DNA from: Rhodospirillales bacterium
GTDB taxonomy: Bacteria > Pseudomonadota > Alphaproteobacteria > Rhodospirillales > WMHbin7
Assembly: GCA_016214125.1 (NCBI GenBank)
Contig: JACRPC010000041.1
Location: 62,001-126,000, forward strand
Reading direction: 5' to 3'
DNA length: 64,000 bases
A model generated the notes under the pieces. That model was not told the origin of the DNA. It saw only the letters and a program-made list of their open reading frames with translations, and ran no database searches. Of this stretch, positions 9,827-50,402 are shown piece after piece. The translations under genes and the position numbers were made by a program. The stretch's first letter is position 1; every line of letters begins with the position of its first letter.

Positions 9827-10317
9827 TGAGAAGGACCAAACAAGCCAGCCCGCTGATCACCTTGTCGATTAACGGCAACGACCACATGGCGGTGGTGAAG
9901 CCCTTTACCACCCTTCTGCAGGTGCTGCGCGACCAATTGGGGCTGACCGGCGCCAAATGCGGCTGCAACCAGGGCGTCTGCGGCGCCTGCACGGTGCTGA
10001 TCGACGGCAAGCCGGCCCGCGCCTGCCTGTCGCTGGCCGCCAATTGCACCGGCCGCCAAATCGTCACCATCGAGGGCGTCGGCTCGGTCGCCCAGCCCAG
10101 CCGGGTCCAGCAGGCCTTCATCGATGCCGGCGCCGTGCAATGCGGCTTCTGCACGCCGGGCATGGTGCTGTCCTCGGAATCGCTGCTGGCCGAGAATCCG
10201 AAACCCAGCGTCGCCGAGATCCGCACCGCGCTGTCGGGCAATCTCTGCCGCTGCACCGGCTACAAGCGGATCATCGAAGCGGTTCGGCTGGCCAGCAAAG
10301 CGGAGGCCCAGCCATGA
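9826..10317 (+). CDS. coxS: molybdenum hydroxylase 2Fe-2S (small) subunit, CoxS/CutS family
   Basis: It has 163 residues with two [2Fe-2S] domains. The plant-ferredoxin-type cluster uses Cys45, 47, 52, 55 and 67 region (KCGCNQGVCGACTV ... ARAC). The second, all-helical cluster uses QCGFCTPG (Cys106, 109) and LCRCTGY (Cys141, 143). All expected cysteines are present, so the electron path from the Mo centre to FAD is intact. The stop overlaps the ATG of the large-subunit gene (ATGA at 10314-10317), showing tight translational coupling. Confidence 0.95.
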   Translation: MRRTKQASPLITLSINGNDHMAVVKPFTTLLQVLRDQLGLTGAKCGCNQGVCGACTVLIDGKPARACLSLAANCTGRQIVTIEGVGSVAQPSRVQQAFIDAGAVQCGFCTPGMVLSSESLLAENPKPSVAEIRTALSGNLCRCTGYKRIIEAVRLASKAEAQP

Positions 10318-12623
10318 CCGTTCACACCCCGATCGTCGGCACCAGCGTTCCCAAGCGCGACGCCAAGGAAAAGGTGCTGGGCCAGGCCCGCTACATCGCC
10401 GACATGACCCGGCCGGGCATGCTGCACGGCGCCATCTTGCAAAGCCATGTCGCCCACGCCCGCATCCTGGGCTACGACGTCTCCGAGGCCCTGAAGGTGC
10501 CGGGCGTGCACGCCGTGCTGACCGGCGACGATGTCGGCGATTTCCGCATGGGCGCCTTCGTCAAGGACGAAACCGCCATCGCCAAGGAGAAGATCCTCTA
10601 TCTGGGCGAACCGGTGGCGGCGGTGGCCGCCGACGACGAGGAAACCGCCCGCTACGCCGCCCGCCTGATCAAGGTCGCGGTCGAGGAATTGCCGGGCGTC
10701 TTTTCCCCCGAGGAGGCGCTGGCGCCCGGCGCCCCCATCCTGCACGAGAAGCTGGAGAGCTATTTCAAGGTCTTCCCGGCCGTCTGCGGCGGCAATCTGT
10801 TGAGCCAGACCGAGATCACCGAGGGCGATGTCGCCAAGGCCTGGGCCGAATGCGACATCATCGTCGAGGGCGAGTACGAGACCCAACCGCAATACCATCT
10901 GTCGATGGAGCCTTGCGGCGCGCTGTCGGAAATCGATGTCGATGGCCGGATCACCCTGTGGTCGGCCAACCAATCGGTGTTTCGCGTCCAGGCCAATGTC
11001 TGCGAATCGCTGGGTCTGCCGATGTCGCGCCTGCGCTGCCTGACGCCCAAGGTGGGCGCCGGTTTCGGCAACAAGATGGAGCCGCACATCCAGCCGATCT
11101 GCGTAGCGCTGACCATGAAGACCGGGCGGCCGGTGAAGATGATCCTCAACCGCGCCGAGGATATGGAGACCGTGCGTGCCCGCCATCCCTTCAAGGTCAA
11201 GATGAAGACCGGCGCCAAGAAGGACGGCACCTTGGTGGCGCGCGAGGTCGAGGCGCTGCTCGATGGCGGCGCCTTCGGCGACGACAGCCCCGGCGTCTTG
11301 GGCTACAGCCTGTTGATGGCGCGCGGCCCCTACCGCATTCCCAACGCCCGCTGCTTCGGCCGGGTCGCCTACACCAACAAGATGCGCTTCGGCGCCTTCC
11401 GGGGCTTCGGCAATCCGCAAGTGAGCCTGGCCGGCGAAACCCAGATCGACCAGATCGCCGACAAGCTCGGCATCGACCACTTCGAGATTCGCCTGAAGAA
11501 CGCGCTCAAGGACGGCGAACGCTGGTTCGGCGGCCAGCTCCTGAAATCGAACGGCCTGATCGAATGCATCGAGAAGGCCCGCGCCGCCAGCGAATCGGTC
11601 AAGCACCTGAAGAGCCAGGCGGCCAAGGGCAAGCTGCGCGGTCGCGGCATCGCGGTAGGCGGCCACATCTCGGGTCTGTTGGCGACCGGCGCCATCGTGC
11701 GCCTTCTCGAAGACGGCACGGCGGTCTTGAACACCGGCGCCGTCGATATCGGCCAGGGTTCCGACACCGTGCTCACCCAGCTTTGCGCCGAAACGCTAAG
11801 GCTGCCGCTCGACAAGGTGGCGCTGGCCAGCCCCGACACCGACGGCTCGCCCTACAACTGGGGCACCACGGCCAGCCGCGTCACCTACACCACCGGCCGC
11901 GCCGTGGTGGCGGCGTCCAAGGACGTCGAACGCCAGATCAAGGACCATGCCGCGGCGATGCTTAACACCACGCCCGACCAGTTGGAGCTGCGCGACGGCG
12001 GTTTCGTTGGCATCAAGGGATCGAACACCCAGTTGCCCTATCTGGCGGTTTCGGCGCGCGCCCATTGGGGCGTCGGCGGGCCGATCGTCGGCACCAACAC
12101 GCTGGTCTTCGACACGCCCACCATCGATCCCAAGCACGGCGCCGCCACCGGCCTGCCCTTCGGCCAGATCGGCGTCTTCAGCTTCTGCGCCATGGTCTGC
12201 GAGGTCGATATCGACGAAACCACCGGCAAGGTCGAGCCGGTGCGCGCCTGGTACGCTGCCGATGTCGGCAAGGCGATCAATCCGCGCCTGGTGGAAGTGC
12301 AGATGGAGGGCGGTTTCGTTCAAGGCATGGGCTTCGCGCTCACCGAGGAGCTGGTGTGGGAAGGGCCCCGCCTGGTCAATCCCAATCTGCGCGACTACAA
12401 GGCGCCGACCATGCTCGACGCGCCCTACGACATCCACACCCAGATCGTCGAACATCCCGAGCCGGATGGCCCCTGCGGCGCCAAGGGGGTGGGCGAGATC
12501 AGCCTGGTGCCGGTGCCGGCCGCCATCGCCAACGCCATCGCCGATGCCGCCGGCATCCACCTGACCCAATTGCCCTTCACCCCCGAGCGGGTGCTGAACG
12601 CCATGCTGGCGAAGAAATCCTAG
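10314..12623 (+). CDS. coxL: molybdenum hydroxylase large (Mo-cofactor) subunit, xanthine dehydrogenase family
   Basis: It has 769 residues from the ATG overlapping coxS. It contains the aldehyde-oxidase/xanthine-dehydrogenase a/b-hammerhead (N-terminal about 20-130) and the molybdopterin-binding domain. Active-site loops: GAFRGFG (about 360-365), the Mo-proximal GQGSDT (about 480), and KGVGEISLVP with the conserved catalytic Glu (about 725). The Arg-Gly-Phe-Gly loop is that of xanthine dehydrogenase, 4-hydroxybenzoyl-CoA reductase and N-heterocycle hydroxylases; it lacks the Ser-selanyl-Cys loop (AYRCSFR) of form I CO dehydrogenase. So it probably hydroxylates an aromatic or N-heterocyclic carbon, or an acyl-CoA, rather than CO. 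Confidence 0.92.
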   Translation: MTVHTPIVGTSVPKRDAKEKVLGQARYIADMTRPGMLHGAILQSHVAHARILGYDVSEALKVPGVHAVLTGDDVGDFRMGAFVKDETAIAKEKILYLGEPVAAVAADDEETARYAARLIKVAVEELPGVFSPEEALAPGAPILHEKLESYFKVFPAVCGGNLLSQTEITEGDVAKAWAECDIIVEGEYETQPQYHLSMEPCGALSEIDVDGRITLWSANQSVFRVQANVCESLGLPMSRLRCLTPKVGAGFGNKMEPHIQPICVALTMKTGRPVKMILNRAEDMETVRARHPFKVKMKTGAKKDGTLVAREVEALLDGGAFGDDSPGVLGYSLLMARGPYRIPNARCFGRVAYTNKMRFGAFRGFGNPQVSLAGETQIDQIADKLGIDHFEIRLKNALKDGERWFGGQLLKSNGLIECIEKARAASESVKHLKSQAAKGKLRGRGIAVGGHISGLLATGAIVRLLEDGTAVLNTGAVDIGQGSDTVLTQLCAETLRLPLDKVALASPDTDGSPYNWGTTASRVTYTTGRAVVAASKDVERQIKDHAAAMLNTTPDQLELRDGGFVGIKGSNTQLPYLAVSARAHWGVGGPIVGTNTLVFDTPTIDPKHGAATGLPFGQIGVFSFCAMVCEVDIDETTGKVEPVRAWYAADVGKAINPRLVEVQMEGGFVQGMGFALTEELVWEGPRLVNPNLRDYKAPTMLDAPYDIHTQIVEHPEPDGPCGAKGVGEISLVPVPAAIANAIADAAGIHLTQLPFTPERVLNAMLAKKS

Positions 12624-37050: not shown

Positions 37051-40000
37051 GCGGCGTGGGCCGCCGGAGCCGCCGGCTCGTCGGCCACCGCCGGTTTGCG
37101 GGTACGGGCCAGCAGCGTGTAGGCGGTGGGCACGACGAAGAGAGTGAGCAGCGTGCCCAAGGCGATGCCGCCGACGATCACCCAGCCGATCGGCTGGCGG
37201 CTTTCCGCGCCCGCCCCTTGCGCGAAGGCCAGCGGCGCCGCGCCCAGCACCATGGCGCCGGTGGTCATCAGGATCGGACGCAGCCGGAGCGTTGCCGCCT
37301 CGATCACCGCCTCGCGCTTGCGCCGTCCCTGATCCTGGAGCTGATTGGCGAATTCGACGATCAGGATGCCGTGCTTGGTGATCAGCCCGACCAGCGTCAC
37401 CAGGCCGATCTGGCTGTAGACGTTGAGCGTGCCGCCGCTGAGCTTCAAGGCCAAGAGCGCCCCGGTCATCGACAACGGCACGGTCAGCATGATGATGAAG
37501 GGGTCGATGAAGCTTTCGAATTGCGCCGCCAGCACCAGATAGATGAAGAACAGCGCCAGCACGAAGGTAAGCATCAGATCGGCGCGCGAGGTCTTGAATT
37601 CACGCGACTGGCCGTTGAAATCATACTGGGCCGAGGCCGACAAGGTGCGCGCCGCGATCTCTTCCAGGATGGTCAGCGTCTCGCCCAGGGCGTAGCCGGG
37701 CGCCACGTTGGCGGAAATCGTCGCCGCCCGCATCTGGTTGAAGTGATTCAATTCGCGCGGCGCCACGGTTTCCTCGATCGACACCAGATTGGAAAGCTGG
37801 ATCATCCGATCGCCCTTGCCGCGCACATAGATCGCCGAAAGGTCGTCGGGATTGCGCCGCTCGGCATCGCCGATCTGGACGATGACGTCGTACTGCTCGC
37901 CCTCGCGCTTGAAGCGGGTCACCTGTCGGCCGCCCAGCATGGTCTCCAGAGTGCGGCCCACCGCCTCGACCGAGGCGCCGACATCGGCCACCTTCTCGCG
38001 GTTGACGTTCACCCGAAGCTGCGGCTTGTTGAGACGCAAATCGGAATCGAGCGCCATGAAGGCCGGATGCTTGGCGGCCTCGGCCATCAGGGCGCCGACG
38101 ATGCGGCTCAGTTCCTCGTAGCCCTGCGAGGTTTGGACGACGAACTGGATCGGCTTGTCGCTGGCGCGCTGGCCGAAAGCCGGCGGGTTGATGGCGAAGG
38201 CGAGCACGCCCGGAATGGCGAACAGCTTGGGCGTGATCTCCTGGACGATCGCCTGCTGCTTGCGCGAGCGCTGGCTCCAATCCTTCAGGCGGGTGAAGGA
38301 AATCGCTTGCGACACCACCGGCACTCCGGCGATCGCCATGTAAGCCTCGGTCTCCGGAATGGCGGCGAAATACTGCTCCATGCGCCGCAGATAGGTGTCG
38401 GTGTAGGCGATGGTCGAGCCCTCGGGCGCGATGGCGATCGAGAGGAAGGCGCCGCGATCCTCGGTCGGCGCCAGCTCGGCCTTCAATTCCTTGATCAGCA
38501 GGTAGGAGGCGCCCGCCACCATCAGTCCCAGGGTGACGATCGCCGGCCGGAAGCCCAGCGAAAGCGAAAGAGCGCGCCGATAGCCAGCGGTCAAAGCCTC
38601 CAGAAAGCGCTCGATGGCGTTGTAGAGGGCGCTGTGCCGCTTCTGATGGCGCAGCATGCGCGAGCACATCATCGGCGTCAGCGTCAGGGCGACGAAGCCC
38701 GAGACCAGCACCGCGCCGGCCAGGGTGAGCGCGAATTCGGTGAACAGCCGGCCGGTCCGCCCGGTCATGAAGCCGATCGGCACATAGACGGCGGCCAAGG
38801 TCACGGTCATCGCCAGAACGGCGAAGGCGATCTCGCGGCTGCCCTGGATGGCGGCCTTGACGGGCGGAATCCCCTCTTCGATATGGCGATAGATGTTTTC
38901 CAGCATGACGATGGCGTCGTCGACCACCAGCCCGATCGCCAGCACCATCGACAGAAGCGTCAAGGTGTTGATGGAGAAATTGAAGGCGTACATGAGGACG
39001 GCGGCGCCGACCAGCGACACCGGAATGGTAACCAACGGAATCAGGGTGGCGCGTAGCGTGCGCAGGAAGAAGAAGATCACCAGCATCACCAGCCCCACCG
39101 CCTCGGCGATGGTGCGGAAGACGTTGTCAATCGAACGGTCGATGAAGATGGTGGAATCGTAGCCGATCACCACCTTCATGCCCTCGGGCACTCCGGCCTC
39201 GATGGACGGAATGGCGGCGCGAATCGCCTTGGCGACTTCGAGCGGGTTGGCGGTCGATTGCTTGACCACCCCCATCGCCACCGAACTGTTGCCCATGAAA
39301 CGGGCGACCCGGCGCTCGTCGGCCGAGCCCAACTCGACCTTGCCGACATCGCGGATGCGTACCATATAGCCGCCGATCTCGCCCAGAATGACGGCGCCGA
39401 ACTGTTCGGGCGTCTGCAGGTCGGTTTCCGACAGCACGGTGAATTCGCGCTTCTGGCTTTCGATCCGCCCGGCCGGGATTTCCACGTTCTGGCGCTTGAG
39501 CGCGGCCTCAACGTCCTGCGGCGTCAGGCGGTAGGCCGCCAGGCGGGCGCGATCGAGCCAGATGCGCATGGCGTAGCGTCGCTGGCCGTAGATGATGACG
39601 TCGGCGACGCCGGTCAGGCTTTGCAGCCGGTCCTTGACGTAACGATCGGCGAAATCGCTGATGAACAGCGGATCGTGGCGGTCCGACGAAAAGGAAAGAT
39701 AGAGGATCGGGGTGGCGTCGGCCTCGACCTTGGCGATGATCGGCTCGTCGATGCCCTCGGGCAAGCGGCCGCGCACCCGGCCGGTGCGGTCGCGCACGTC
39801 GCTGGCCGCCGATTCCGGATCGCGGTTGGAGCGGAAGCGCACGGTGATCTGGCTCAGCTCCGGGCGGCTGATCGAGGTCAGCACGTCGACACCCTCGATC
39901 CCCGACAGAGAATCCTCGAGCACGCGGGTGACCTGGGTCTCGATGATCTCGGAGCTGGCGCCCAGATATTTGGTCTCGACCGTCACCACCGGTTCGTCGA

Positions 40001-40118
40001 TGTTGGGGTATTCGCGGATGGTCAGGCGCTGGATGGCCATCAGGCCAAGCAAAGCCAGCAGCAGGCTCATCACGGAGGCCAGCACCGGGCGGCGGATACA
40101 AAGCTCGGGCAAACGCAT
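37047..40118 (-). CDS. RND efflux transporter, HAE1/AcrB-MexF-like inner-membrane pump
   Basis: It has 1023 residues, 12 predicted membrane segments. N-terminal LCIRRPVLASVMSLLLALLG, the large periplasmic loops after TM1 and TM7, and TM4 with the proton-relay motif IGLVVDDAIVMLENI (Asp-Asp pair) are RND hallmarks. TM10 has a Lys in the GLITKHGILIVEFANQ segment. It exports hydrophobic or amphiphilic compounds using the proton gradient. The fusion-protein gene lies 5 bp upstream; no outer-membrane channel gene is adjacent. Confidence 0.93.
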   Translation of the reverse strand: MRLPELCIRRPVLASVMSLLLALLGLMAIQRLTIREYPNIDEPVVTVETKYLGASSEIIETQVTRVLEDSLSGIEGVDVLTSISRPELSQITVRFRSNRDPESAASDVRDRTGRVRGRLPEGIDEPIIAKVEADATPILYLSFSSDRHDPLFISDFADRYVKDRLQSLTGVADVIIYGQRRYAMRIWLDRARLAAYRLTPQDVEAALKRQNVEIPAGRIESQKREFTVLSETDLQTPEQFGAVILGEIGGYMVRIRDVGKVELGSADERRVARFMGNSSVAMGVVKQSTANPLEVAKAIRAAIPSIEAGVPEGMKVVIGYDSTIFIDRSIDNVFRTIAEAVGLVMLVIFFFLRTLRATLIPLVTIPVSLVGAAVLMYAFNFSINTLTLLSMVLAIGLVVDDAIVMLENIYRHIEEGIPPVKAAIQGSREIAFAVLAMTVTLAAVYVPIGFMTGRTGRLFTEFALTLAGAVLVSGFVALTLTPMMCSRMLRHQKRHSALYNAIERFLEALTAGYRRALSLSLGFRPAIVTLGLMVAGASYLLIKELKAELAPTEDRGAFLSIAIAPEGSTIAYTDTYLRRMEQYFAAIPETEAYMAIAGVPVVSQAISFTRLKDWSQRSRKQQAIVQEITPKLFAIPGVLAFAINPPAFGQRASDKPIQFVVQTSQGYEELSRIVGALMAEAAKHPAFMALDSDLRLNKPQLRVNVNREKVADVGASVEAVGRTLETMLGGRQVTRFKREGEQYDVIVQIGDAERRNPDDLSAIYVRGKGDRMIQLSNLVSIEETVAPRELNHFNQMRAATISANVAPGYALGETLTILEEIAARTLSASAQYDFNGQSREFKTSRADLMLTFVLALFFIYLVLAAQFESFIDPFIIMLTVPLSMTGALLALKLSGGTLNVYSQIGLVTLVGLITKHGILIVEFANQLQDQGRRKREAVIEAATLRLRPILMTTGAMVLGAAPLAFAQGAGAESRQPIGWVIVGGIALGTLLTLFVVPTAYTLLARTRKPAVADEPAAPAAHAA

Positions 40119-40123
40119 GGGCG

Positions 40124-41299
40124 CTAGCTTCCCGGCTTGGGCGGATTGGCGGGCGAATTGGCGGGCGGGCCGCCCGGTGGCATGACACTGACCGGCGCCC
40201 CCTCGCGCACCTTCATGTGCCCGGCGGTGATCACCTGGTCGCCCGCCTTCAGGCCTTCGAGGATTTCCACCTTCCCCTCGCGGCGCAGGCCGGTGCGAAC
40301 CGGCGCCGCCACCACCTTGCCCTCGACCACCTTGTAGATCAGAAGCTGGGAGCCCCTGGAAATCAAAGCCTCCTCGGGTGCCAGGAGCGCGTCGTCGGAT
40401 CGTGAAACCACCAGCCCGACCCGAACGAACAGGCCCGGGCGCAGGATCGCTCCCTCGTTGGGCAATCGTGCCCGCACCGCCACCGAGCGGCCGTTGGGAT
40501 CGATCTTGGGATCGATGGCGTAAACCTCGCCCTGGAAAGTGCGGCCGGGAAAGGCGTCGGCGGTGACGTTCAGCTTCTGACCGTCCGACAGGGTGGACAG
40601 CGCCATTTCCGGCACCTGAAACTCGACCTTGATGGGATCGATGCTTTCCAGATTGACGATGTCGAGCCCCGGCGTGACATAGGCGCCGACGCTGACCTTG
40701 CGCAAGCCCACCACCCCATCGAACGGCGCCACCATCACCGTTTTCTCCAGATTGGTCTTGGCCTGTTCGAGCCGGGCCTGATCGACCCGAAGCTTGGAAA
40801 CGCCCTCGTCCTTGGCGCGCTCGGTGCCGGCCCCCTGGGCGTAGAGCTTTACCGCCCGATCGTTGTTGGCGCGGCTCAATTCCAGGCTGGCGCGGGCCTG
40901 CTCAAGCTCGGCGACATAGCTGGAATCGTCTAGCTTGACCAGCACCTGGCCCTTCTTGACCTTCTGCCCTTCCTCGAAGGACAGGCGGACGATGCGTCCG
41001 GCAAGTTCGGGACGGATCATCACCGACTCATTCGACATCAGGGTGCCGACGGCGGTGACTTCGCGCAGGATTTGCCCGGTCGCCACCGTGACCGCCTCAA
41101 CCGGCGGTCCCTTGGGCGGGCCGGCCTGCGGACCGCCCGGCGAAGCCGGGGCCGGCGGTGCGGCCGGCGCCGGACTGGCGCCCTTGCCGGGACCGCCAAC
41201 CGTCGAGACCAAGGACGGACCGGAAAAATACCACCAGGTTGCCAGGCCGCCGGCCAGGACGATCAGCACGGCCAGGATCGACCGGGTCTTATGCACCAT
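40124..41299 (-). CDS. RND efflux periplasmic adaptor (membrane fusion protein)
   Basis: It has 391 residues from ATG 41299 (MVHKTRSILAVLIV, a membrane anchor); the frame to 41443 upstream is untranslated. A Pro/Ala/Gly-rich linker (about 32-66) is followed by the split biotinyl-lipoyl domain (AGRIVRLSFEEGQKVKKGQV and TVMVAPFDGVVGLRKVSVG) with a short coiled coil between, then beta-barrel and membrane-proximal domains ending in a Pro/Asn/Gly tail (GGPPANSPANPPKPGS). Bridges the pump encoded downstream to an outer-membrane channel. Confidence 0.92.
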   Translation of the reverse strand: MVHKTRSILAVLIVLAGGLATWWYFSGPSLVSTVGGPGKGASPAPAAPPAPASPGGPQAGPPKGPPVEAVTVATGQILREVTAVGTLMSNESVMIRPELAGRIVRLSFEEGQKVKKGQVLVKLDDSSYVAELEQARASLELSRANNDRAVKLYAQGAGTERAKDEGVSKLRVDQARLEQAKTNLEKTVMVAPFDGVVGLRKVSVGAYVTPGLDIVNLESIDPIKVEFQVPEMALSTLSDGQKLNVTADAFPGRTFQGEVYAIDPKIDPNGRSVAVRARLPNEGAILRPGLFVRVGLVVSRSDDALLAPEEALISRGSQLLIYKVVEGKVVAAPVRTGLRREGKVEILEGLKAGDQVITAGHMKVREGAPVSVMPPGGPPANSPANPPKPGS

Positions 41300-41457
41300 T
41301 GGAAATTTCCCAAGAATTGATCTGTACCAAAGGGGTAAGCGCTCTATAATCGGGTTTGGCTCCCGGCGCAATCGACCGCTTGGAGCCAGCGGGTGGTTAT
41401 TGTAATCAAGGTTACTCGACCCGCAAGGCCAACCGGAACGCACGAGGGCGCGGCACC

Positions 41458-42789
41458 ATGACCCATCTTGGCACCTTTCTTCTCGCTGGAGCCGATAAAA
41501 AGAGCGGCGAGGCGCTGATCGCCGCGCTGGGCAAGAACGGGCTGCGCGGCCATCACGAGCCCGGATTGGCCGCCATCATCGACCGCGCCCGCGCCGATCA
41601 CCCCGATATCCTGGTCGTCGACCGGGCGATCGAGGGCGGCGACATCCTCGAACTGGCCCGCCAGGTCAAAGCCTATCCGGAAACCTGCGACATTCCGATC
41701 TGCCTTTTGGCCGAGCGCTTCGATTCGGCGATGGCCCGCGCCGTGCTCGCCCAGGGCTTGGACGACCTCATCATCGCCCCCTTCAACACCGACATGCTGA
41801 CCGCTCGGCTGAAGCCGCTGCTGCGCCTGTCGACCATGCACACCGAACTCTTGCGCCGCGCCCAGGTGGCGACCAGCTTCGGCCTGATGGTGCCGGAACG
41901 GGTGGAGACCGCGGTCAATCTCGACAAGCAATCCCTGCTCGTCGTGTGCGCCGGCTCGGCCCAGGAAAAGCTCGATTACCGCGACGCGCTTTCGCCGGCC
42001 GACCTCATCATCACCGAAAGCCTGTACGAAGCGGAAAGCCTGCTTACCCAGCGCAATTTCGACGCCGCGCTCCTTGATGTGCGCGGCAAGCCGGCCGACT
42101 ATCTGGGCTTCTGTTCGCAGGTGCGTAACAATTCGCGCCTGTTTAATCTGCCGGTGGTGCTGGCGATGCGGCCCGAGGATATGGGCGACGGCATCGAGGC
42201 CTATCGGCGCGGCGCCAGCCGCGTCATCCCCAAGCCGATCGATGCCGACCGGCTGCAACTGGGCACCCAAATCCTGGTGCGCCGCCAGCGCCTGCGCTGG
42301 AAGATCCGCGAGGCGCTCTTGAAGACCCTGGCCCAGCCGACCGCCGACGCCCATACCGCCACCTATGGCGCGCCCTTCTTCCATTCCTATGTCGAAAGCC
42401 GGCTCGATTTCGCCAAGGCCGGTAACCGCCACCTGTCGGTGGTGTTCGTCAACATTCCCAACGTGCCCGGCATCGCCCAGCAGTTCGGCGACGAGGCCGC
42501 CGGCATGCTGATGTCGCAGTTGGGCAATTGGATCAACGGCCTGCTGCGGGTCGAGGACCTCGTCTCGCGCACCGACACCAGCGAATTCTGCCTGGTGCTG
42601 CCCGACACCCCGATCGAGGAGGCCGAAGTGGTGATGCACCGCATCGCCAGCGTCCTCACCTACACCGATTTCGCGGTGCCGGAGGTCTATCAGCCGGTGC
42701 GGGTGTGGGTGGAAATCGGCAGCGCCATCGCCCAGCAAAACGACACCGTCGCCTCGCTGCTGGCGCGCGCCCATACCAACATCAATTAG
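41458..42789 (+). CDS. PleD-like protein: two receiver domains and a degenerate GGDEF domain
   Basis: It has 443 residues from ATG 41458. Receiver 1 (about 5-125) has HPDILVVDRAIEG with Asp55 as phospho-acceptor. Receiver 2 (about 155-275) has FDAALLDVRG with an Asp at the same place and ends VIPKPIDADR. The C-terminal domain (about 290-443) aligns with a diguanylate cyclase, but the signature GG(D/E)EF is replaced: the segment reads SRTDTSEFCLVLP, losing both glycines and the catalytic acid. It therefore probably does not make cyclic di-GMP, and may act as a scaffold or receptor in PleD/DivK-type control. It is divergent from the RND operon. Confidence 0.85.
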   Translation: MTHLGTFLLAGADKKSGEALIAALGKNGLRGHHEPGLAAIIDRARADHPDILVVDRAIEGGDILELARQVKAYPETCDIPICLLAERFDSAMARAVLAQGLDDLIIAPFNTDMLTARLKPLLRLSTMHTELLRRAQVATSFGLMVPERVETAVNLDKQSLLVVCAGSAQEKLDYRDALSPADLIITESLYEAESLLTQRNFDAALLDVRGKPADYLGFCSQVRNNSRLFNLPVVLAMRPEDMGDGIEAYRRGASRVIPKPIDADRLQLGTQILVRRQRLRWKIREALLKTLAQPTADAHTATYGAPFFHSYVESRLDFAKAGNRHLSVVFVNIPNVPGIAQQFGDEAAGMLMSQLGNWINGLLRVEDLVSRTDTSEFCLVLPDTPIEEAEVVMHRIASVLTYTDFAVPEVYQPVRVWVEIGSAIAQQNDTVASLLARAHTNIN

Positions 42790-42796
42790 GGCGGCG

Positions 42797-43915
42797 TTAG
42801 GGCGGCGCCTCGGGCGCGGCGCCCTCCCAGGCCATGACATGGATGGCCTGGCCCAGGAGCGACACCGTCACCCGGTCGCCCGGCTTCAAATCGTTGCGCG
42901 CCGCGGCGTGGCGGGTGAGCGTCATCGCCAGCGTCTCGCCACTCTCGACCGCCAGGGTCACCGTCTCGGTCTCGCCCAGCGGCAGACGGTCGCGCACCAC
43001 GCCCTCGATCGGATTCTCCTTCTCGCCCTTCGAGGGCTTGAAGCGGCTGTGCAGCAGCACATCGGCCGCCGGGATCAGCCAATGCACCTTCTGGCCCTTC
43101 ACGAAGCCGGGCTGCGGCCGGGCCTCCAGCACCCGGCCTTGCCAGACCAGGCGGGTGGCGGTGGAATCGAGATCGAGAATGTGGGCCTCGAACAGATTGG
43201 TGTGGCCGACCTGGCGGGCCACAAGCGGGCTGGCCGGGCGCGCCAGGATTTCGGCCGGCGGCGCGGTTTGCAAGGTGCGGCCGCGATACAGAATCGCCAT
43301 CCGGTCGGCCAGCATCACCGCCTCGTCGAGATCGTGCGTCACCAGCACCACCGGCATCCGCAATTGGCGGTGCAACTGCGCCAATTCGCGGCGCAGGCGT
43401 CGCCGCGTCATCTGATCGACGGCGGCGAAGGGTTCGTCGAGCAAGAGAACATCGGGCTCGCGGGCCAAGGCGCGGGCCAGGGCGACCCGTTGCTGCTGGC
43501 CGCCGGAAAGTTCCCCCGGCAGCCGATCCTGAAAACCCGACAGATGGACGAGATCGAGCAGCGCCTCGACGCGGCGCTCGCGGTCAAGGCGCGGGCGATG
43601 GCTCATCGCCGCCATGATGTTGCCGGCGACGCTGAGATGCGGAAACAGGGCGTAGCTCTGGAACACCACCCCCACCGAGCGCGCCTGCACCGGCTCGATG
43701 CGGTTCGCTTGGGTATCGAGCCAGGTCCGGCCGGCGCAGATCACCCGGCCCCGCTGCGGATGGTTCAGCCCGGCGATGGCGCGCAGGATGGTCGATTTGC
43801 CGCTGCCCGACGGCCCCACCAGGGCCAGCAACTCGCCGGGCCCGCAATCGAACGTCACATCGAGCGGGATCGGCCGCTCCTGGATCAGACGAACCGACAG
43901 ATCGCGCTCAGCCAC
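42797..43915 (-). CDS. modC: molybdate ABC transporter ATP-binding protein
   Basis: It has 372 residues. ATPase domain: Walker A GPSGSGKST (about 33-41), signature LSGGQQQRVALARAL, Walker B DVLLLDEPFAAVD and VTHDLDEA. The C-terminal third (about 225-372) carries TOBE/Mop-like segments (NLFEAHILDLDSTATRLVW and DRVTVSLLGQAIHVMAWEG) that bind oxyanions as a feedback sensor. Overlaps modB by 8 bp. Tungstate or sulfate uptake is a weaker alternative, but the ModA neighbour and box support molybdate. Confidence 0.9.
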   Translation of the reverse strand: MAERDLSVRLIQERPIPLDVTFDCGPGELLALVGPSGSGKSTILRAIAGLNHPQRGRVICAGRTWLDTQANRIEPVQARSVGVVFQSYALFPHLSVAGNIMAAMSHRPRLDRERRVEALLDLVHLSGFQDRLPGELSGGQQQRVALARALAREPDVLLLDEPFAAVDQMTRRRLRRELAQLHRQLRMPVVLVTHDLDEAVMLADRMAILYRGRTLQTAPPAEILARPASPLVARQVGHTNLFEAHILDLDSTATRLVWQGRVLEARPQPGFVKGQKVHWLIPAADVLLHSRFKPSKGEKENPIEGVVRDRLPLGETETVTLAVESGETLAMTLTRHAAARNDLKPGDRVTVSLLGQAIHVMAWEGAAPEAPP

Positions 43916-44573
43916 GGCGGCCTCCCCGCCCGGTGACGAGATAGACCAGCGCCATCACCGCCACCGAAACCACCAGCAGAAGCGCCGCCATCGCGCCTGC
44001 CCCGGAATCGTCAAAGGCCTGGACGCGGTCGTAGATGGCGATCGACAAGGTGCGGGTGGCGCCGCTGATGTTGCCGCCCACCATGAGGACGACGCCGAAC
44101 TCGCCCAGCGTGTGGGCGAAGACCAGGGCGAAGGCCGCGGTGACCCCGGACCGCGCCAAAGGCAACTCGATGCGCCGAAAGGCGGCCAGACGCGACAGGC
44201 CCGAACACCAGGCGGCCTCACGCACCTCGCGGGGAATGCCCTCGAAGGCGCGCAAGATCGGCTGCACCGCGAAGGGAATGTTGACGAGCAACGAGGCGAT
44301 CAACAGCCCCTCGAAGGAAAAGGCCAGGGGATGGCCGAACACGCCTTGCCACAGGCGCCCCAAAGGCGCCGCCGCCCCGAATTGGCCCAAGAGATAATAG
44401 CCGAGCACCGAGGGCGGCAGCACCAGGGGCAGCGCCACCAGCATTTCGATCACCGCGCGGCCGCGCACGCCGGGCAAGGAGAGCCAGCGCGCCAGCAGAA
44501 TGGCCGGCGGCAGGAGCAGGACCGAGGTCCAGCCGGCCAGTTCGAGCGAAAGACGAAGCGCTGCCCAATCCAT
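43908..44573 (-). CDS. modB: molybdate ABC transporter permease
   Basis: It has 221 residues, five or six membrane segments. Features of ModB: VALPLVLPPSVLGYYLLGQF near residue 50-70 and the coupling loop REAAWCSGLSRLAAFRRIEL. Sits between modA (12 bp upstream) and modC (overlap). The channel delivers molybdate, needed by the island's molybdenum hydroxylase as well as other Mo enzymes. Confidence 0.9.
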   Translation of the reverse strand: MDWAALRLSLELAGWTSVLLLPPAILLARWLSLPGVRGRAVIEMLVALPLVLPPSVLGYYLLGQFGAAAPLGRLWQGVFGHPLAFSFEGLLIASLLVNIPFAVQPILRAFEGIPREVREAAWCSGLSRLAAFRRIELPLARSGVTAAFALVFAHTLGEFGVVLMVGGNISGATRTLSIAIYDRVQAFDDSGAGAMAALLLVVSVAVMALVYLVTGRGGRRG

Positions 44574-44585
44574 GTCCGCGGCCTT

Positions 44586-45338
44586 TCAGGGCGGTGCATA
44601 GCCGTGACGGGCGAAGATCGCCTGCGCCTCGGCCGAGAGGATGAAATCGTGGAAGGCTGACGCCTGCGGATCGACCGGTCGGATGACCACCATGCGCTGG
44701 GCAAGCGGCGCCGCATAACGATCGGCGATGAGCCCAATCCGCCCCTTGTCCTTGAGCGCCCCGACGAATGCGGCGGGGAGGATCGCCGCATCAACCGAGC
44801 CGGTGAGCGCGAAATGGGCCGTCTGGGCGACGCTTTCGCCCAAGACCAGCTTGGGCCGGATCGCCGGCCACAGCCCCAGGGCTTCCAGGACCTTGACCGC
44901 CTGGCGCCCGTAGGGCGCGTAATCGGGATTGGCGATTGCCAGCCTGGCCAGCCGGCCGGCCTCGAAATCGGCTTTGAGCAGGCCAAGGTCGAGCGTCGTG
45001 GCCGAGCCTGTGGGTACGAAGAGGATCGACAGTCCCCGGGCATAGACGGCCCCTTCGTCGCGGGTGCGCCCCTTGGCGACCAGGATCCGAGCCGTCTCCT
45101 CGTCGGCCGACAGGAACAGGCGGTGCGGCGCTCCCTGTTCGATCTGGCGGGCGAGGTTGCCGGAACTGCCGTAGCTGATCGACGGTTCGGTTCCGGTGCG
45201 GACCCGATAAAGGGCGGCGATTTCGCTAAGCGCCGGCTGGAGATTGGCGGCGGCGGCAACCCGCAGTTCGGCCGCCTCGGCGCCTCCGCCAAGGACCGCC
45301 AAACCTGCAACGAAAATTCCGGCGGCGCCTCTTCCCAT
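44586..45338 (-). CDS. modA: molybdate-binding periplasmic protein
   Basis: It has 250 residues, signal peptide to about residue 22 (GAEA). The mature protein begins AELRVAAAANLQPALSEIA and has the ligand-shell segments SYGSSGNLARQIEQGAPHRL and LFLSADEETA, matching ModA (Ser and Asn/Tyr contacts with the oxyanion). ATG 45338 is preceded by GAGGGA, and a ModE-like box ends just upstream of the ribosome site. First gene of modABC. Confidence 0.9.
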   Translation of the reverse strand: MGRGAAGIFVAGLAVLGGGAEAAELRVAAAANLQPALSEIAALYRVRTGTEPSISYGSSGNLARQIEQGAPHRLFLSADEETARILVAKGRTRDEGAVYARGLSILFVPTGSATTLDLGLLKADFEAGRLARLAIANPDYAPYGRQAVKVLEALGLWPAIRPKLVLGESVAQTAHFALTGSVDAAILPAAFVGALKDKGRIGLIADRYAAPLAQRMVVIRPVDPQASAFHDFILSAEAQAIFARHGYAPP

Positions 45339-45348
45339 CTTCGTCCCT

Positions 45349-45372
45349 CGTTATATATGAATAGATATAGCG
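45349..45372 (-). promoter_or_regulatory. ModE-box-like palindrome at modA
   Basis: CGTTATATA-TGAATA-GATATAGCG, 24 bp, matches the layout of the E. coli modABCD operator (CGTTATATT...TACATAACG; same length, same TATATA cores). It lies 11 bp before the modA start, where a molybdate-loaded regulator would repress the operon. No modE gene is in the window. Confidence 0.7.
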
Positions 45373-45415
45373 AAAGGCGGCTCCCGCGCCAACCGAAACC
45401 TGATAGGATGGGCGC

Positions 45416-46063
45416 ATGCGCATCGATGTGGTTTTCGACACCGTCTGCCCCTGGTGCTATGTCGGCAAGCGCCGCCTGGAGCGCGCCCTATCCAGCCGCC
45501 CCGAGCTCAAGGTTGCGCTGCGCTGGCAGCCCTTCTTGCTCAATCCCGACATGCCGGAAGGCGGCATCGAGCGACGCGCCTATCTGGAGCGCAAATTCGG
45601 CGGCGGCCATCGGGTGCAGCAGATGTTTGGCGCCATCATCGCCGCCGGTCAGGCCGAGGACATCCCCTTTGCCTTCGACAAGATCGACCGCGCCCCCGAT
45701 TCGGTGGCCTCGCATCGACTGATCCGCTATGCGGGCCGCTTCGGCCACGACGCGGCGGCCGTCGAGGCGGTGTTCGACGCCTATTTCGTTAAGGGTCGGG
45801 ACATCGGCGCCCTCGACGTTCTGGTGGCGATCGGCGAGAGCCTGGGCATCGAATCCAACGGCCTATGCGCCTATCTGAAAAGCGACGAGGACGTCGCCAC
45901 CATCCATGCCGACAACACAAGGGCACACCGGCTGGGGGTGAGCGGCGTACCCAGCTATCTGTTCGACGGGGTCTTTGCCCTGGCCGGCGCCCAGGAAACC
46001 GACATTTTCCTGCGCCTTCTCGATCTGGCGCGCGAGAACGAGGCCGCCCTGCCGGTCAGTTGA
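45416..46063 (+). CDS. DsbA-family oxidoreductase (FrnE-like)
   Basis: It has 215 residues and no signal peptide, so cytoplasmic. The N-terminus MRIDVVFDTVCPWCYVGKRR carries the CPWC redox motif (Cys11, Cys14) of the FrnE/2-hydroxychromene-2-carboxylate isomerase-like branch of DsbA; the C-terminal AHRLGVSGVPSYLFDGVFAL includes the cis-Pro loop (GVP). Likely a thiol-disulfide or glutathione-linked reaction; substrate unknown. Divergent from modA, sharing the short region containing the ModE-like box, which might affect both. Confidence 0.85.
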   Translation: MRIDVVFDTVCPWCYVGKRRLERALSSRPELKVALRWQPFLLNPDMPEGGIERRAYLERKFGGGHRVQQMFGAIIAAGQAEDIPFAFDKIDRAPDSVASHRLIRYAGRFGHDAAAVEAVFDAYFVKGRDIGALDVLVAIGESLGIESNGLCAYLKSDEDVATIHADNTRAHRLGVSGVPSYLFDGVFALAGAQETDIFLRLLDLARENEAALPVS

Positions 46064-46099
46064 TCGGCTCATCCCCAAAGAAAAAACCCCGGCCAAAGA

Positions 46100-46131
46100 A
46101 AAACCCCGGATCGTCGCCGATCCGGGGTTTT
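46100..46131. terminator. bidirectional terminator between DsbA-family gene and hppA
   Basis: AAAACCCCGGATCG-TCGC-CGATCCGGGGTTTT: a perfect 14-bp stem with A-run and T-run at the ends, between two convergent genes. Confidence 0.85.
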
Positions 46132-46152
46132 CCTTGCGAAACGCCGAAGCGC

Positions 46153-48255
<2,103 letters not shown>

Positions 48256-48339
48256 GATGATGGATCCCATTCTTTGGAAGAATTCCGGGTAGGGTGTTTG
48301 CAGACCCCCCCTCGAATGGGACCGCACCATGCCAGAAGG

Positions 48340-48364
48340 AAAAGCCTTAGGCAACAGGGCTTTT
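48340..48364. terminator. hairpin terminator candidate between fliL and hppA
   Basis: AAAAGCC (48340-48346), an 11-nt loop, GGCTTTT (48358-48364). A T-run follows on the plus strand; on the minus strand, the direction of fliL, it reads AAAAGCC...GGCTTTTCC. Loop is large, so moderate support. Confidence 0.4.
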
Positions 48365-48391
48365 CAATTTTTTTGCGGTGCAGCAAACAGC

Positions 48392-48409
48392 CCCGCCCGA
48401 ACGGGCGGG
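48392..48409 (-). terminator. GC hairpin downstream of fliL
   Basis: CCCGCCCG-AA-CGGGCGGG: perfect 8-bp stem about 50 bp past the fliL stop. Together with the hairpin at 48340 it suggests fliL and hppA are at least partly separate transcripts. Confidence 0.45.
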
Positions 48410-48456
48410 ACGTCAGAAATATTAGGTTAAGCTAATTTGTCTTCGGTCAAGCCGTC

Positions 48457-48894
48457 TTAGCGCTCGAAGACCTCGGAGATCAGGATGTTACGGGCGATTC
48501 CGGGGCCAATTACCTTTTCGGTCGCCGCCATCATCCTTTGCTTGACGACCACGAGATCGGCCGACTTCCGATTCCGCATGTGATCGGGCATGAAGGCGTG
48601 CAGGTCGCGCAGGATCAAGTCGCGCACCCTCGGCATTTTCTCTTGTAAAATCTTGCGCTTATCCATGTCGACCTCGAAACGCAAGGTCATGTAGAGCTGC
48701 TTGGGCGCCTTGTCGGTGAGGAAGATCGGGATGGAAATCGACTCCATGTCGACGAAGACCGGCTTGGGCGGTTCGGGAATCTTGGCCACTTGGTCGGCCG
48801 GCTTGAAGGGGCCAATCCCGAACACCACCATGGCGCCGACGGCGCCGCCGATCAGCATGAACAGGATCAAGACCAGCAAGACGACCTTTTTCAT
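48457..48894 (-). CDS. fliL: FliL-like flagellar basal body-associated protein
   Basis: It has 145 residues with one N-terminal membrane anchor (about 4-27: VVLLVLILFMLIGGAVGAMV) and a periplasmic domain. The layout KPVFVDMESISIPIFLTDKA, a charged central helix (KMPRVRDLILRDLHAFM) and the C-terminal VIGPGIARNILISEVFER follow FliL. FliL supports stator function of the flagellar motor. No other flagellar gene is in the window; the gene lies 10 bp after thiL. Confidence 0.78.
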   Translation of the reverse strand: MKKVVLLVLILFMLIGGAVGAMVVFGIGPFKPADQVAKIPEPPKPVFVDMESISIPIFLTDKAPKQLYMTLRFEVDMDKRKILQEKMPRVRDLILRDLHAFMPDHMRNRKSADLVVVKQRMMAATEKVIGPGIARNILISEVFER

Positions 48895-48904
48895 CGAACC
48901 CCCT

Positions 48905-49885
48905 CTAGAGATGCCGGTACCCGGTCATCGTTACGGCAACCGGGTCGCCCGCCGCATCGACCACCCTCACCCCCTCACCTTCCACCATCCTTCCGATGGC
49001 GGTCAAGGGAAGGCCAAGGCGCCCGGATAGGGCCTTGAAAGCTGGATCGGCATCGGGATCGGCGGTGAAGAGAAGCTCGTAATCGTCGCCGCCGCCCAAC
49101 ACCTGATCGATCAGGCGCCGATCGGCCGAAAGGGCGGCCCGAGAGGCCGGGCTTAACGGCAAGGAATCTTGCTCGATCACCGCCCCCAATCGGCTGGTTG
49201 CGCCGATATGGGCCAAATCGCCCACCAACCCATCGGAGATATCCATCGCCGCGTTGGCCAACCCGCGAAGCGCGCGGCCCAATTCCAAGCGCGGCGTGGG
49301 CAGTTGATAGCGCGCCACCAGATGGGCTTTCGATTCGGCGTCCAGTTGCGCCAGCCCCCCTTTGAGGACCATCAGGCCAAGGGCGGCGTCGCCCAGGGTG
49401 CCGGAAACCCAGATGCGATCGCCCTTTCGGGCTCCCGAACGAAGCAGGGCCCGCCCGGTTTCGATCTCGCCCAGCGCGGTGATGGTGACGGTGAAGGGAC
49501 CGGGCGTGACCACCGTGTCGCCGCCAATCAGAGGCACGTTGAATCGATCGAGATCCTGGCCCAGCCCCTTCGCATAGGCCTCGATCCACGCGAAACCGAT
49601 GCCGATCGGAAAGGCGACGGCTTGCAGAAGGCCGATCGGGCGGGCGCCCTTGGCCGCCAGATCCGACAGATTGACCCGGACCGCCTTCTGGGCGATGCGG
49701 TCCGGCGGGTCTTCGGGGCGGAAATGGACACCGGCCACCAGGGCGTCGGTAGTGATCGCCAGGCTGCGGCCGGGCGGCAGATCGATCAGGGCGACGTCGT
49801 CGGTAAGCCCCAGGGCGCCCGGCTGGCCCTTGGCAAGCGGCGCAAACAGCCGCGCGATCAGTTCGAACTCACCCGGCTCCGCCAT
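48905..49885 (-). CDS. thiL: thiamine-monophosphate kinase
   Basis: Phosphorylates thiamine monophosphate to thiamine diphosphate. It has 326 residues of the AIR-synthase/PurM-like fold. ThiL hallmarks: N-terminal GEFELIARLFAPL, DVALIDLPPG, AITTDALVAGVHFRP (metal-binding Asp), GGDTVVTPGPFTVTITALGE, DISDGLVGDLAHI and GGGDDYELLFT. Overlaps nusB by 17 bp, in the common alphaproteobacterial order ribH-nusB-thiL. Confidence 0.95.
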   Translation of the reverse strand: MAEPGEFELIARLFAPLAKGQPGALGLTDDVALIDLPPGRSLAITTDALVAGVHFRPEDPPDRIAQKAVRVNLSDLAAKGARPIGLLQAVAFPIGIGFAWIEAYAKGLGQDLDRFNVPLIGGDTVVTPGPFTVTITALGEIETGRALLRSGARKGDRIWVSGTLGDAALGLMVLKGGLAQLDAESKAHLVARYQLPTPRLELGRALRGLANAAMDISDGLVGDLAHIGATSRLGAVIEQDSLPLSPASRAALSADRRLIDQVLGGGDDYELLFTADPDADPAFKALSGRLGLPLTAIGRMVEGEGVRVVDAAGDPVAVTMTGYRHL

Positions 49886-50402
49886 CGAATTCCGCCTCGC
49901 GCAGGCGCTTGGCCAAAGTTTCGAGAAGGGCGTTGATCATCGCCGGCTCGGGGCCGGCGTAAAAGGCATGGGCGAGATCGACATATTCGTTCATCGCCAC
50001 CCGGGCGGGCACGTCGGCGCGGCGCCAAAGTTCGTACAGCGCGGCCCGCAGCAGCGCCCGATGCAGGGCCTCCAGCCGCTCGAAAGGCCATTCGGGGCTC
50101 AGAGCGCCTTGGATCATCGCGTCCAATTCCGCGCGATGCCCTTCGACGCCGCGCAGCAGATCAGCGAAGAAATCGGGATCGATGTCGCCCAGGCGCTTGC
50201 CGGCATCGTCCAAGGGAATCGGGCCGCTCAGATATTGCGCCAGGGCGTCGGCGATCGGCGTTTCCGCGATGTCCATCTGATAGAGGGCCTGCACGGCGGC
50301 CAGCCTTGCCGCCGCTCGCGCCTGGGGACTGCCACGCGGCCGCTTGCGCCGGTTGCTGGATTTTCGCCCCCGGGTCTTGCGCTCCGTCGGGGACGGAGTC
50401 AT
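49869..50402 (-). CDS. nusB: transcription antitermination factor NusB
   Basis: It has 177 residues. After a basic N-terminal tail (TERKTRGRKSSNRRKRPRGS), the NusB helical domain starts ARAAARLAAVQALYQMDIA and includes ALYELWRRADVPARVAMNEY, the conserved helix, and a C-terminal FYAGPEPAMINALLETLA. It binds boxA RNA with S10 in rRNA antitermination. The Lys/Arg-rich tail is longer than in E. coli NusB. Overlaps ribH by 4 bp. Confidence 0.93.
   Translation of the reverse strand: MTPSPTERKTRGRKSSNRRKRPRGSPQARAAARLAAVQALYQMDIAETPIADALAQYLSGPIPLDDAGKRLGDIDPDFFADLLRGVEGHRAELDAMIQGALSPEWPFERLEALHRALLRAALYELWRRADVPARVAMNEYVDLAHAFYAGPEPAMINALLETLAKRLREAEFDGGAG

Follow-up and report, generated by a model that had tools for sequence, protein, structure and literature searches.

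A probable ModE operator in front of modABC in a Rhodospirillales genome whose detected ModE is a DNA-binding domain only

The 24-bp palindrome in front of the molybdate transport operon modABC of this Rhodospirillales bacterium very probably binds a ModE-type regulator. We hold, with reasonable confidence, that it is the modABC operator and that the short ModE of this genome, which is a winged-helix protein and lacks molybdate-binding domains, would bind it, probably as a dimer and most likely with repression as the outcome. Five things are observed directly: the dyad in the 64 kb window (the whole stretch of DNA that was analyzed), its uniqueness, its spacing to modA, the short ModE itself, and, across many genomes, the association of short ModEs with 24-bp boxes at modA. 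In textbooks ModE is the sensor of molybdate; this bacterium and many of its relatives have retained the operator, and their regulator lacks its sensor half.

Coordinates of the features are collected in Table 1. Read from the window, the dyad has the form CGTTATATA-N6-GATATAGCG, exactly as the sequence-only reading of this DNA had described it, and it matches the pattern CGNTATAT-N8-ATATNNCG with 0 mismatches on both strands. The exact pattern occurs a single time in the genome of 3,986,285 bases (3.99 Mb). When up to two mismatches were allowed, no second site was seen in the 64 kb window; 100 shuffles of the window gave a mean of 0.28 matches at this tolerance, and 10 of the 100 reached the observed 2 strand-matches. 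The window count is weak by itself, and the genome-wide uniqueness of the exact pattern is the stronger fact. Two mismatches were found at 14 other places in the genome, 11 of which are intragenic according to a crude gene caller that can over-extend genes upstream. A search for the same box at other Mo-enzyme genes, which had been proposed earlier, gave no further exact box in the genome. The window also encodes the large subunit of a xanthine-dehydrogenase-type Mo hydroxylase with MoCoBD domains (9957-12623, plus strand). A possible regulatory link to this enzyme had been suggested, and no ModE-type box with up to two mismatches was found near it.

Table 1. Features at the modA-DsbA intergenic region (window coordinates).
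Feature	Position	Strand	Basis or sequence
modA, molybdate-binding protein	44586..45338	-	TIGR01256, 137.9 bits (cut-off 62.5); PF13531
modB, permease	43908..44573	-	TIGR02141, 205.3 bits (cut-off 182.6)
modC, ATPase, one C-terminal TOBE domain	42797..43915	-	ABC_tran and TOBE domains; operon position
24-bp dyad, predicted Mo-box / ModE operator	45349..45372	.	CGTTATATATGAATAGATATAGCG
Divergent DsbA-family gene	45416..46063	+	PF01323; neighbour, candidate member at most
Promoter-like pair, weak, by eye	45364..45392	-	TTGGCG 45392-45387, 17 nt, TATATC 45369-45364

The CGNTATAT...ATATNNCG dyad, its 24-bp length and its place directly before a molybdate transport operon are those of a ModE operator (Mo-box) of the E. 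coli type. ModA and ModB exceed their NCBIfam cut-offs; ModC scores under the TIGR02142 cut-off (221.4 vs 285.05) and was assigned from its operon position and TOBE domain. The box sits between modA on the minus strand and the divergent DsbA-family gene, 10 bases from the modA start codon (45338) and 43 bases from that of the DsbA-family gene (45416). A weak promoter-like pair agrees with the sigma-70 consensus at 8 of 12 positions, with its TATATC inside the box, and a promoter scan called no sigma-70 promoter, this pair included. ModE proteins are generally dimeric, and together with the symmetry of the dyad this suggests that the short ModE would bind as a dimer. Because of the position of the box, a ModE bound 10 bp from the modA start codon would most likely block the start of transcription, and the modABC transporter would then be repressed.

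A genome free of ModE-like proteins had been named as the finding that would overturn the proposed operator, and this objection no longer applies. One ModE-domain match was found, outside the window (G000:C35:31466-31717; E 8.6e-25 to TIGR00637), and together with the dyad and the 10-bp distance to modA it supports the proposal of a ModE-type operator before modABC. The protein is not a full-length ModE: it scores 88.5 bits against TIGR00637, below the cut-off of 98.5, and the two C-terminal TOBE domains are absent. Its frame is 145 aa, of which about 121 aa follow from the likely start, with a single winged-helix match (PF00126) and nothing else, and the 15 aa after the ModE domain leave no room for a TOBE domain. 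The best PDB match is 2ijl (135 aa; E 3e-27), while E. coli ModE (1b9m) matches with E 2e-12. A genome-wide search with the PF03459 model alone (54 contigs, 98.9% complete) gave one TOBE match, the tail of ModC, and no second. With a DNA-binding domain as the only ModE and a lone PF03459 match in ModC, the further claim of a link, through the box, between molybdate supply and a sensor is unsupported.

The short modE does not adjoin modA in this genome. No box was found in its 3.4 kb locus at 11/13 positions, and 46 bp separates it from its divergent neighbour. This neighbour encodes a fused DUF2478-DUF4213/DUF364 protein (L002:168-1397, G000:C35) that may have a role in molybdenum metabolism, since relatives of both its parts stand near full-length modE in two other genomes (G215, G148). 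We considered it as a partner of the short ModE and rejected it for the same reason. On the other side, the modE stop codon overlaps the start of a chpT-like histidine phosphotransferase gene (PF10090; L002:1806-2441, G000:C35) by 4 bp; a chpT relative adjoins a short modE in just one other locus (L283, genome G324).

Across the order, ModE proteins fall into two groups. A ModE-domain match (E <=0.001) was obtained in 179 of 248 genomes, the weakest of which may be other helix-turn-helix proteins, and the number of residues after the ModE domain was bimodal in the loci readable in full, about 10-39 vs about 158-179. We classed the proteins first by open-frame length and then corrected the classes by the residues after the domain, in regions chosen partly for their boxes (G232, G012, G009, G022, G014, G199) and partly for ambiguous frames; G239 was classed as full-length although it is clipped by a contig end. 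In a tree of 84 DNA-binding domains, 43 short ModEs, that of the window's genome included, lie on one side of a branch with support 94/92, which falls below the 95/80 mark, and the full-length ModEs lie on the other side together with E. coli ModE. The tree was built from 96 alignment columns with an unsettled bootstrap; E. coli ModE sits on a long branch, and its placement is unsure. The sole "short" row among the full-length proteins (G157) is really a 271-aa frame clipped by its locus. In the recognition region the usual reading is MSYRRAW for short ModEs and LSYKAAW for full-length ones; E. coli ModE has ISYKSAW. Both ModE types are carried by G003, from the window's own family, and by G227.

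The two groups go with two box lengths. Each modA place was scored for CGNTATAT-Nn-ATATNNCG, a pattern with 13 set positions, over the 300 bp ahead of the modA homology plus the first 31 bp of the homology itself. The sample comprised, among the matches listed, 150 modA places (145 genomes) and 150 ModE places (131 genomes); the modA places divide into 62 from genomes with short ModE only, 48 from genomes that have a full-length ModE, whether or not a short one is also present, and 40 without a listed ModE. With at least 11 of 13 positions matching, a threshold picked after inspection of the data, the 24-bp box (n=8) was present at 27 of the 62 short-only places and the 25-bp box (n=9) at none. 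For the full-length class the counts were 2/48 and 20/48, respectively (Fisher 8e-12 for the spacer split). Neither box was seen at 35/62 short-only and 26/48 full-length places, and the 40 places without listed ModE, which were set aside, had three 24-bp and no 25-bp boxes. The ratio of 24-bp to 25-bp boxes in short-only vs full-length genomes was 36:1 vs 2:24 at threshold 10 and 20:0 vs 0:13 at threshold 12. In shuffled sequence each combination of class and spacer gave 0 to 0.4 places; counts at spacers 6/10 and 7/11 were taken to echo spacers 8 and 9 by way of the TATA periodicity. The two 24-bp exceptions with full-length ModE (G051, G034) are near-identical sites from one genus. At 11/13 the 24-bp boxes span 12 genera and the 25-bp boxes 7, and these associations track clades, so that independent events are fewer than the counts imply.

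The same division was seen at modE itself. In the 700 bp upstream of full-length modE the 25-bp form was found in 22 of 30 loci and the 24-bp form in one, with 0 in shuffles at either spacer; the lone 24-bp locus belongs to G227 and has both box lengths. The modA beside the full-length gene of G003 has a 25-bp box, and three members of the window's family with short ModE only (G001, G002, G004) have weak 24-bp boxes, matching at 11/14 positions of a slightly stricter pattern. From the 24-bp pattern alone, genomes with full-length ModE had appeared to lack boxes; this view was dropped when their sequences revealed the 25-bp form. One genome, G095, has 15 exact 24-bp matches per strand. We rejected a large ModE regulon there, as 6 of 9 fetched sites are intragenic (by crude calls) and one lies between convergent genes. 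Many spacers of the fetched sites are themselves palindromic, and instead of a regulon the matches may form a family of hairpin repeats; G095 was used for its modA box alone.

We also used the window's short ModE as a query against 289 genomes of the class, which gave relatives in 71, itself included, one of them full-length (G025). All 29 of the non-own loci that were fetched encode a DNA-binding-only ModE. Nine of these 29 loci have the 24-bp form of the box, and the 25-bp form was found in none; one shuffle per locus gave a 24-bp match in 1 and a 25-bp match in 0. In the loci with modA in view (n=9) the box lies at the 5' end of the modA frame, whose start codon was not fixed, in 7, away from modA in one (G524), and is missing from one (G262). 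A search of a draw of 289 genomes of the class with a full-length ModE from the order gave one full-length match and two matches to the TOBE half only; a single query of this kind could let more distant full-length ModEs escape. The two TOBE-half-only matches (G289, L310; G415, L309) are from one genus, of which G511 has a short-ModE match in a 118-aa frame.

Taken together, about 70 of 289 class genomes have relatives of the sensor-less ModE, 29 of them checked, vs one full-length hit with one full-length query. A tentative wider picture is that the order has two ModE lineages, sensor-less proteins on 24-bp dyads and full-length proteins on 25-bp dyads, which could run as two parallel molybdate regulons where both occur in one cell, and that the sensor-less form is the commoner ModE of the class, with molybdenum sensing moved to another protein or given up. 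Several points speak against the preferred reading of the box as the operator of the short ModE: 35 of 62 modA places of short-ModE genomes are boxless at 11/13, modE lies apart from modA, modE itself has no box, the associations track clades, E. coli pairs a 24-bp box with a full-length ModE, and the promoter scan called no sigma-70 promoter.

How a molybdenum signal could reach such a regulator was approached through the TOBE domains. In 34 short-ModE genomes with at least 11/14 positions at modA, PF03459 matched in 30 and not in 4 (G238, G222, G192, G176). The match lies in a frame of at most 111 aa, which could be a free molybdate-binding protein, in 4 of the 34 (G062, G160, G182, G080); in G182 this free TOBE gene and modA are transcribed divergently, and the box lies between them. 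In G160 a separate TOBE gene follows at once on the short ModE gene on the same strand (C26:310114-310734), so that the halves of a classical ModE are neighbours. With a small-frame TOBE in 4/34 and no PF03459 match in another 4/34, a free TOBE partner does not offer a general solution, at least as judged by PF03459. The molybdenum cofactor riboswitch RF01055 had no match in a search of the genome (276 candidates, 150 scored), and no Rfam family matched at gathering scores in window positions 40000-50000. It is quite possible, at close to an even chance, that the molybdenum signal is relayed by another protein, for instance through the TOBE domain of ModC or by a free TOBE protein where present. 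A short ModE without any molybdate response is possible too, with somewhat less in its favour, and direct binding of molybdate by the short ModE seems unlikely.

The strongest competitor of the preferred reading, which we nevertheless regard as somewhat unlikely, is a short ModE with no response to molybdenum whatsoever, which either sets a fixed modABC output or follows another signal. The lack of a general free TOBE partner (as counted above in the 34 genomes) and the 4-bp overlap of modE with the chpT-like gene are in line with this. Against it, short modE often lies close to mod genes: of 85 short places, 27 are no more than 4 kb from a listed modA, and of the 29 class loci, 13 have a mod gene at a distance of up to about 1.5 kb. 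A chpT relative beside modE in just a single other locus also counts against it.

A classical switch, in which molybdate binds ModE and modABC is repressed as in E. coli, would require a sensing ModE that was missed or that falls in a gap of the genome. The box does have the form of the E. coli operator and the assembly is in 54 contigs at 98.9% completeness, but the ModE and PF03459 searches gave only the short ModE and ModC, and in the order the 24-bp modA boxes go with short-only genomes (27 vs 2) while full-length ModE goes with the 25-bp form, which makes this reading improbable. Still less probable is an AT-rich promoter element or a chance palindrome with no dedicated regulator: the box may overlap a -10 region, and the G095 palindromes illustrate that such sequences can multiply for other reasons, but modA places of 12 genera share the CG ends, the half-sites and the exact spacing (11/13), and boxes are rare in shuffles and at neighbouring odd spacings. 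That the box chiefly serves the DsbA-family gene is equally remote, for although it lies 43 bp from that start codon, boxes recur at modA whereas the other modA loci fetched, most of which span 1.3-1.5 kb upstream of modA, gave no DsbA homologue. The sequence-only reading was right that the box lies physically upstream of this gene, and conservation lends no support to control of the gene by the box.

ModE operators are already known, and so are DNA-binding-only ModEs. A literature search over titles and abstract openings, in which subscription papers were thinly covered, gave no paper that deals with a 24/25-bp split, with DNA-binding-only ModEs of this group or with the pairing of short ModE and E. 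coli-type boxes. The closest solved relative of the short ModE, PDB 2ijl, is likewise short and has the MSYRRAW stretch. It is named "Molybdenum-binding transcriptional repressor", a name that alone is no proof of molybdenum binding, and the literature search found no functional study of it. The MopA and MopB proteins of Rhodobacter capsulatus are ModE-like repressors that act on Mo-boxes, as would be the case here; according to the parts of PMC6925177 that describe them they repress mopA-modABC, anfA and morAB with molybdate. They thus respond to molybdate, whereas no full-length ModE was found in the present genome.

The likeness to the E. coli modA operator in length and core, which had been noted from the sequence, holds. 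That operator, CGTTATATTGTCGCCTACATAACG in the K-12 record (NC_000913), is also a 24-bp dyad with the CGTTATAT half-site just before modA, and the E. coli ModE consensus is given as ATCGNTATATA-N6-TATATANCGAT in the section of PMC545781 that deals with it. The E. coli operator lies 19 bp before modA instead of 10 bp, and E. coli ModE has 262 aa with molybdate-binding domains, compared with about 121 aa without them here. Our data suggest a one-base-pair rule that would predict which ModE reads which box; since E. coli pairs a 24-bp box with a full-length ModE, spacing does not track domain content everywhere. DNA-binding-only proteins of the present kind have a counterpart in two Desulfovibrio species and D. 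psychrophila, for which a single-domain ModE is described in the relevant passages of PMC545781. The box predicted there for Desulfovibrio, CGGTCACG-N14-CGTGACCG, is absent from the intergenic sequence before modA, and the E. coli-type box is kept instead. The mechanism of molybdenum sensing in Desulfovibrio was called "not clear" in the same passages in 2004, and with short ModEs and recognizable boxes in this genome and its relatives the question becomes testable in other bacteria.
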